In this document: positions 10,687 to 41,086 of the stretch, in pieces
Position numbering within the stretch: position 1 is the first letter of the stretch
How the letters are laid out: each line of letters begins with the position of its first letter
Source of the DNA: Atrina japonica
Taxonomy: Eukaryota; Mollusca; Bivalvia; Pterioida; Pinnidae
Direction of reading: 5' to 3'
Length of the DNA: 64,000 bases
Assembly (NCBI GenBank): GCA_030159075.1
Contig: BROG01000258.1
Location: forward strand, 248,001-312,000
The notes under the pieces: model-generated
Told to the model about the DNA's origin: nothing
What the model saw: only the letters and a program-made list of their open reading frames with translations
The model's database searches: none
Translations under genes and position numbers: made by a program

Positions 10687-11004
10687 ATGGGACCCCAAAA
10701 TATTAGGTCAACTAGGCCTATCTCAAGATTGTCAATGATAAGTTCTCGTCAAGGTCCCATATTACAACGTTTATGTGTATCAGCAAAACTAAGATTGATG
10801 GATTCAAGGTTGAAGTCATGCGCGTTCTGGACGTCCATTGTCTGTCTAAACATACTTGCATTTTACCTTTATAAAAAGAAGTGGCATAAAAAAAGTAATA
10901 AGACGGTTATCGTGTTTACCAGATATCCATCTCCGGGCACAACTAAAACAAGGCTTATACCAGCTGTTGGACCAGTAGCAGCTGCATACACACAGCTTCT
11001 TATG
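10687..11004 (+). CDS. Exon 1: start, membrane anchor and first DUF2064 motif
   Basis: Codes for residues 1-106 and ends in phase 0 at ATG before the weak donor GTTGAG. It contains a hydrophobic stretch (SCAFWTSIVCLNILAFYLY) flanked by basic residues, then the nucleotide-sugar transferase-like signature VFTRYPSPGTTKTRL and VGPVAAAY. An in-frame stop at 10669-10671 limits the start; Met17 and Met38 are other candidates. The last 45 nt and the donor belong to a segment that is duplicated 171 bp downstream. The open frame runs on through the CT tract, but that coding (LSLSLS) has no family support, and joining 11004 to 11770 restores the domain. Confidence 0.75.

Positions 11005-41086: not shown

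Follow-up and report, generated by a model that had tools for sequence, protein, structure and literature searches.

A predicted membrane-anchored fusion of two arsenosugar-named enzyme families in the bivalve Atrina japonica, and a candidate arsenosugar pathway in animals

Introduction

The radical-SAM (S-adenosylmethionine) enzyme ArsS is known to transfer a 5'-deoxyadenosyl group to arsenic, and the 'arsenosugar' names of two further protein families, TIGR04282 and TIGR04283, appear to rest on their neighbourhood with ArsS. The arsenosugars of marine animals are usually credited to algae and microbes. In bacteria, the two families occur in single-chain proteins (e.g., P0058, L007, and L011). 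Here we analyse a 64,000-nucleotide stretch of the bivalve Atrina japonica (positions 248,001–312,000 of contig BROG01000258.1; hereafter the window), in which a gene at 10687–41086 fuses these two domains in the order seen in bacteria. The fused protein shares about 40% identity and 32 invariant columns with the bacterial proteins, which differ from it in lacking an anchor (10 checked), in being encoded by an uninterrupted frame, and in having ArsS nearby in some cases. We regard the gene as an animal form, newly described and with a predicted membrane anchor, of a two-domain family known from bacteria.

We favour, with moderate confidence, the reading that the fused enzyme finishes arsenosugar-type glycosides from the product of an ArsS encoded in the same genome, as part of the animal's own synthesis. 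Because a single animal genome encodes ArsS, an arsenite methyltransferase, and the matching pair of transferase domains, and because at least 20 animal species have that pair along with ArsS, synthesis by animals can be put to a direct test. It also bears on arsenic in seafood: if the reading is true, part of the arsenosugar in seafood is the animal's own product. In the open-licence literature, no report of animal arsenosugar genes or of animal ArsS was recognised by title or abstract.

Structure of the fused gene

Eleven exons join into 1,647 nt, encoding 548 residues and ending with a TAG stop at 41086. All ten introns have a GT donor and an AG acceptor, and their phases are compatible. 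The first-pass annotation had proposed eleven exons in consistent phase and 548 residues; the same length and coordinates were recovered, and the family motifs that it quoted are all present in the joined protein. Ten of the exons were placed by reading, and exon 8 was located by scanning for open segments with fitting splice sites and phase. The segment at 36609–36685 ranks top among 10 candidates of that scan, and its stretch WFFKLQMK is also present in the orthologue P0001. A degenerate GCDIPG pattern matches once, and not at all in 100 shuffles. The exon 1 donor, GTTGAG, is the weakest among the donors of the gene. Exon 5 codes for residues 272–318, and the two domains end at residue 277 and begin at residue 297, so that the junction lies within exon 5 as the annotation had placed it. 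The features of the gene, including the second domain, of the glycosyltransferase family 2 (GT2) type, are as follows.

10687–11004, plus strand: exon 1, with the start codon, the predicted membrane anchor, and the start of the TIGR04282 domain; it ends in phase 0, and the family alignment fits the joined reading
10816–10872, plus strand: predicted N-terminal membrane anchor, residues 44–62, from hydropathy and charge count
11770–12004, plus strand: exon 2, TIGR04282 domain
16890–17033, plus strand: exon 3, TIGR04282 domain with the motifs GCDIPG and GPASDGGYY
25235–25350, plus strand: exon 4, end of the TIGR04282 domain (WGTEKVF ... LSDV)
26136–26276, plus strand: exon 5, holding the domain junction and the first part of the GT2 domain (IIPTLNEE)
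32086–32218, plus strand: exon 6, GT2 domain (SDGGSKDGT)
32636–32822, plus strand: exon 7, GT2 domain (GRGYQ, HGDS)
36609–36685, plus strand: exon 8, GT2 domain (WFFKLQMK), from the splice scan and orthologue P0001
39039–39136, plus strand: exon 9, GT2 domain (LPYGDNG, LLEDV)
39869–39964, plus strand: exon 10, GT2 domain (TSARRW)
40985–41086, plus strand: exon 11, C-terminus and TAG stop

Profile searches of the 832-Mb, 2,347-contig assembly, in which the best candidates were scored, place exons of the TIGR04282 and TIGR04283 families at a single locus, that of the fused gene.

Bacterial contamination and a pseudogene are both hardly credible explanations of the gene. Its nearest non-animal relatives among the matches listed are mostly bacterial, as a contaminant would have them, and partial copies of exons 1 and 8 lie within introns, as might be seen in a decaying gene:

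11131–11185, plus strand: partial copy of the end of exon 1, within a CT microsatellite of intron 1
36434–36658, plus strand: 111-bp tandem duplication in two copies (99%), which duplicates about the first 50 nt of exon 8

Contamination is refuted because the gene has introns, ten of the GT–AG type over 30 kb on a 916-kb contig. The frame is open, and the protein falls among bivalves in the tree described below. It also keeps 32 of the 32 residues that are invariant in alignment A4 (62 fused sequences, made up of 22 animal-type and 40 other rows). In the tandem duplication, the upstream copy of the exon 8 start runs into a stop, and the duplication looks like a young rearrangement within a conserved gene. 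The CT microsatellite that holds the exon 1 copy (11020–11283) may be polymorphic or an assembly effect.

Domains and predicted anchor of the fused protein

Both halves of the joined protein exceed the curated cut-offs of their NCBIfam families in hmmscan, which bears out the annotation's assignment of TIGR04282 and TIGR04283 to one protein. The match to TIGR04282, a CofC-like, nucleotidyltransferase-like family, scores 171.5 bits against a cut-off of 134 and covers profile positions 1–189 of 189 (residues 74–277). The match to TIGR04283, an MftF-like GT2 family, scores 189.8 bits against 182 and covers positions 2–221 of 221 (residues 297–540).

At the level of fold, the N-terminal domain is predicted to resemble the CofC/FbiD 2-phospho-L-lactate guanylyltransferase (TIGR03552) and the 3-phosphoglycerate guanylyltransferase 7p97, a likeness that would concern the manner of working only; the substrate is expected to differ. 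Membership in TIGR03552 is rejected (22.6 bits against a cut-off of 105). Another solved structure, 3cgx, is a putative nucleotide-diphospho-sugar transferase of Desulfovibrio, a 242-residue chain without a GT2 partner, whose entry title names no substrate. The list from the fold comparison (VIA-align) is filled by few domains and leaves room for families outside it.

Ahead of the first domain, residues 44–62 form a hydrophobic stretch, in agreement with the probable membrane anchor proposed in the annotation. Such a stretch, defined by a 19-residue mean hydropathy above 1.3 (a limit chosen after the values were seen), is present in 25 of 31 animal rows, the window protein included, and in none of 10 bacterial rows, in which the first domain begins at residue 8–54. 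In 24 of the 25 anchor-bearing animal rows, at least three lysine or arginine residues lie within the 15 residues after the stretch. Because of these basic residues and the positive-inside rule, the fused enzyme is predicted to be membrane-anchored with cytosolic active sites.

Two features weigh against this prediction. The anchor is lacking in 6 of the 31 animal rows (Lingula, Lineus, Mactra, Tubulanus, Glandiceps, and Patella); for some of these the gene model may be incomplete. In addition, the window protein has basic residues on both sides of its predicted anchor (4 lysine or arginine residues in the 12 before it and 6 in the 15 after it), and its own anchor orientation is less clear than in its relatives.

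It is very improbable, and disfavoured, that the protein is a common membrane-bound glycosyltransferase serving animal glycolipid metabolism, with no relation to ArsS and a chance likeness to the two families. GT2 enzymes are numerous, and the window protein gives weak matches to many GT2 families, as such an enzyme might. Against this, both halves pass curated cut-offs across nearly the whole profile, and the 10 other families listed for the protein in hmmscan all remain far under theirs. Furthermore, the protein's active sites would face the cytosol, judging by the basic residues that follow the anchor, which sets it apart from Golgi type II enzymes.

The fusion in animals

Relatives were taken from protein lists clustered at 90% identity, in each of which at most the 120 best of up to 7,998 scored candidates were kept. 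Animal relatives carry both domains in the same order, with E-values down to 9.8e-162, indicating that the fused gene is more than chance; most are deposited as uncharacterized proteins. The search for the same fusion in other metazoans, suggested in the annotation, returned at least 33 named animal species with a two-domain protein, from sponge to amphioxus. For this count, species names were taken from the source records, each row needed both PF09837 and PF00535, and one hybrid was excluded. Among the matches listed are bivalves, a chiton, a limpet, a brachiopod, nemerteans, an annelid, five echinoderm classes, hemichordates, three lancelets, and the sponge Sycon. No vertebrate, insect, or cnidarian is among them, which is not proof of absence. 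The lancelet copies P0245 and P0246 are deposited as DPM1; their domain content disagrees with that name, and they are apparently misannotated from the GT2 half.

In a tree of 75 fused sequences, the animal rows form one clade with a support of 100 in the Shimodaira–Hasegawa-like approximate likelihood ratio test (SH-aLRT). The clade comprises 26 rows labelled animal together with two rows without that label, P0091 and P0279. The window protein groups with oysters (support 98). The tree is a quick, unrooted one with a long-branch warning on two bacterial rows, and P0019 and P0023 were counted as animal. A mollusc-specific fusion is rejected by the spread of two-domain proteins from sponge to amphioxus; the fused gene is old in animals. 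The annotation's suggestion that a marine mollusc may itself make or modify an arsenosugar-like or related glycoside thus holds in part: synthesis by the animal is supported by ArsS (see below), and the gene is not particular to molluscs.

Bacterial fusions and their neighbourhoods

The best 80 of 548 relatives in species-representative genomes were examined as bacterial loci. Forty-nine matched over both halves, and two of these (L028 and L085) gave no frame, leaving 47. In 36 of the 47, both halves lie in the same order in one frame of more than 380 residues, a proportion that is biased because the query was itself a fusion. The fusions come from Thermodesulfobacteriota, Cyanobacteriota, Planctomycetota, Verrucomicrobiota, and other phyla. 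The statement in the annotation that the two families are usually separate genes in bacteria is therefore incomplete; its companion statement, that radical-SAM genes lie near them, fits some loci. ArsS is present in the available flank of 18 of the 80 loci, 12 of the 47 with both halves, and 10 of the 36 single-frame fusions, many of the contigs being short.

Given the same-order, single-frame fusions in many bacteria, we reject an origin of the fusion within animals. The fusion is probably of bacterial origin, and the animal addition to it is the predicted N-terminal membrane anchor. The simplest history, on an unrooted tree that leaves the direction of transfer to inference, would be one early gain of a bacterial fusion by an animal or wider eukaryote lineage, followed by losses.

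The neighbour set (A2) holds 85 proteins, consisting of 79 of 92 listed operon neighbours and 6 ArsS proteins already found by motif. ArsS accounts for 13 of the 85, a tally inflated by the 6 added by hand. The Pfam families among the 85 are DUF3641 (12), radical SAM (8), Pyr_redox_2 (7), VTT (7), APH (5), and methyltransferase (3). The VTT-domain and pyridine nucleotide-disulphide oxidoreductase neighbours (loci L006–L085) are a possible extra part of the pathway. P0027, P0035, and similar bacterial proteins (about 675–714 aa) have three domains, with an extra GT2 domain ahead of TIGR04282–TIGR04283.

ArsS and arsenite methyltransferase in the same genome

An ArsS-like gene elsewhere in the genome, which the annotation had proposed looking for, is present as a partner enzyme separate from the fused gene. 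A profile search of the contigs finds TIGR04167 (ArsS) exons at two sites, on contigs C957 and C204. On C957, six exons run from 136215 to 127440 on the minus strand with five GT–AG introns (loci L094 and L097). The joined 317-residue piece, with cysteine typed at an in-frame TGA, scores 410.5 bits against a curated cut-off of 300 and contains the cluster motif CNQACNHC. Single exons score under the cut-off. The searches with TIGR04283, TIGR04167, and NF008823 also match all 14 control genomes at E 0.001; single-exon matches are therefore weak evidence, and the joined proteins carry it.

The second copy (C204:386774–398060; loci L095, L096, and L098) has five exons and 77% identity to the C957 copy over 270 columns. 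Its last exon was not found in about 15 kb downstream, where there is only a degraded, frame-broken match near 397960–398060. Decay of this copy, or a last exon placed elsewhere, could account for this.

Among the matches listed, ArsS comes from 29 named animal species. In an ArsS tree built with 26 of them, animal ArsS falls in a eukaryotic clade (SH-aLRT 99) with brown algae, and cryptophytes are nearest (87). A careful ArsS tree included all 29 species, and with four rows from algae placed outside, animal ArsS is one clade (97/92). The C957 protein groups with that of Pinctada (96/84). UniProt entries of Pinctada and Potamilus already bear a name beginning 'Arsenosugar biosynthesis ra...'.

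Animal ArsS homologues have a long N-terminal extension, and the upstream frame from about 137313 (minus strand of C957) resembles it. Many of the 14 N-termini examined are, by eye, arginine-rich and acid-poor, like mitochondrial presequences, suggesting that ArsS may work in mitochondria.

An arsenite methyltransferase is represented by three exons at C210:765211–766367; put together by eye, they give 119 residues that match solved arsenite methyltransferases (best E 9.3e-50, with 8xt7). This is a partial model with splice borders as read by eye, and its single exons score under the NF008823 cut-off. AS3MT of Crassostrea gigas and Lottia gigantea appear in a published tree, according to passages of PMC5398495.

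ArsS as a candidate selenoprotein

The C957 ArsS frame ends ...DNHCFGCTAGMGSS-TGA-QGVTVNDDQ-TAA. The in-frame TGA stands at the exact selenocysteine position (GxxU) of bacterial ArsS, and the sequence after it is conserved (GSS-TGA-QGVTV, compared with ends of the GSSCQGTTV type in echinoderms). Bacterial TIGR04167 proteins are tabulated as selenoproteins with a GxxU motif in passages of PMC13188914, and as predicted selenoproteins in passages of PMC9312934.

Twenty-one of the 29 named animal ArsS proteins terminate exactly at GSS; the other eight, from seven echinoderms and Priapulus, continue with GSSC or GASC and then QG. Over the best 120 ArsS rows, 64 end at GSS, 53 have cysteine, and 3 have neither. 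The GSS-end and cysteine states need three changes on the careful ArsS tree (three to four over bootstrap replicates). The TGA codon itself is seen in this genome only, the other animals being known from their protein ends. Taken as a reading of these protein ends and one genome, ArsS is probably an animal selenoprotein family that has gone unreported.

The downstream sequence counts against this assignment. Rfam, at E-values up to 10, gave no selenocysteine insertion sequence (SECIS) in about 940 bases and in 9.6 kb downstream of the TGA, in a search run without a positive control. A crude home-made scan of 3.5 kb, likewise without a positive control, gave none in the real sequence and 1–3 in each of 4 shuffles, and a stricter first scan downstream of the TGA also gave none. 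The 3' untranslated region of ArsS may be spliced.

In a survey from 2012 that covered six marine invertebrates (Branchiostoma, Lottia, and Capitella among them), 21 families of selenoproteins are given and none is of the radical-SAM type, according to passages of PMC3473315. No such entry was found in passages of an algal selenoprotein survey (PMC7539508), and no report of ArsS as an animal selenoprotein was recognised by title or abstract in the open-licence literature. If ArsS is a selenoprotein, selenium is tied to the handling of arsenic by animals, and many deposited animal ArsS proteins stop a few residues short.

Proposed pathway and its weight

Among the matches listed, 33 species have the fusion, 29 have ArsS, and 20 have both. 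The last are Pinctada, Ylistrum, Mactra, Potamilus, Mya, Dreissena, Lingula, Lineus, Owenia, Acanthaster, Asterias, Apostichopus, Lytechinus, Anneissia, Antedon, Ptychodera, three Branchiostoma, and Sycon. On our favoured reading, the animal's substrate would contain arsenic. A wider proposal is that inorganic arsenic is turned into arsenosugars, and perhaps into arsenosugar lipids, by animals ranging from sponges to amphioxus, with their own nuclear genes for an arsenite methyltransferase, a selenocysteine ArsS, and the anchored two-domain enzyme; we regard the case for it as evenly balanced.

The steps would be as follows. The arsenite methyltransferase, assigned to its family by sequence, would yield dimethylated arsenic. 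ArsS, with the predicted selenocysteine at its C-terminal TGA, would add the 5'-deoxyadenosyl group to the arsenic, and removal of adenine by phosphorolysis would give 5-dimethylarsinoyl-ribose 1-phosphate. The N-terminal domain of the fused enzyme, with its predicted fold like that of 3-phosphoglycerate guanylyltransferase, would then activate the arsenoribose phosphate to a nucleoside diphosphate (NDP) sugar, after which the GT2 domain would transfer the arsenoribose onto an acceptor such as glycerol, phosphoglycerol, or a membrane lipid. The fusion could channel the activated sugar between the two domains. The anchor, flanked by basic residues towards the catalytic domains, could keep both sites at the cytosolic face of the membrane near a lipid acceptor.

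Several points speak against this pathway. Nine of the 29 ArsS species have no fusion among the matches listed: Pecten, Saccostrea echinata, Mercenaria, Diadema antillarum, Saccoglossus, Priapulus, Ruditapes, Oithona, and Tigriopus. In the cases of Saccostrea and Diadema, the fusion is present in a sister species. Conversely, 13 of the 33 fusion species have no ArsS among these matches, and the two genes are thus not strictly coupled there. No biochemistry tying TIGR04282 or TIGR04283 to arsenic was found in the open-licence literature. In bacteria, 35 of the 47 both-half loci have no ArsS in the available flank, some of the contigs being short.

The last two points would also be expected if the three-part cassette acted on a substrate free of arsenic, with the ArsS-family enzyme adding the 5'-deoxyadenosyl group elsewhere and the fused enzyme building another ribose-derived glycolipid. 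Radical-SAM families switch acceptors easily, and the Pyr_redox_2, VTT, and APH kinase-like neighbours of the bacterial fusions give no hint of arsenic. We consider this explanation unlikely, if deserving of real weight. It is opposed by the score of animal ArsS, which exceeds the curated cut-off by more than 100 bits, by the arsenite methyltransferase exons in the same genome, and by the eukaryotic clade that animal ArsS shares with brown algae, which are known makers of arsenosugars.

Arsenosugars are also described as algal products that move up the food chain (passages of PMC4284695) and as reaching animals by that route (passages of PMC10456119), which tells against synthesis by the animal. 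It would suit an enzyme that only remodels arsenoribosides or arsenolipids from algal food as detoxification, with no synthesis from inorganic arsenic. Such remodelling would leave ArsS unneeded, yet ArsS is present here and in at least 20 fusion-bearing animal species. We judge a role confined to remodelling improbable, and synthesis by the animal remains our preferred reading.

Other features of the window

Large minisatellites occupy introns of the fused gene at 12315–15844, 16049–16327, 18319–19674, 26653–32042, and 34535–34943, with units of 85, 28, 60, 34, and 24 bp, respectively. The longest has about 154 copies, and such arrays swell the gene to 30 kb. Intron 3 holds, on the minus strand (19639–21213), pieces resembling a DIRS-type tyrosine recombinase by eye. 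Outside the gene, also by eye, pieces of a non-LTR (long terminal repeat) retrotransposon resembling a long interspersed nuclear element, with endonuclease, reverse transcriptase, and RNase H, lie at 2693–6712 on the plus strand, and fragments resembling a Penelope-type reverse transcriptase lie at 48494–49238 on the same strand.
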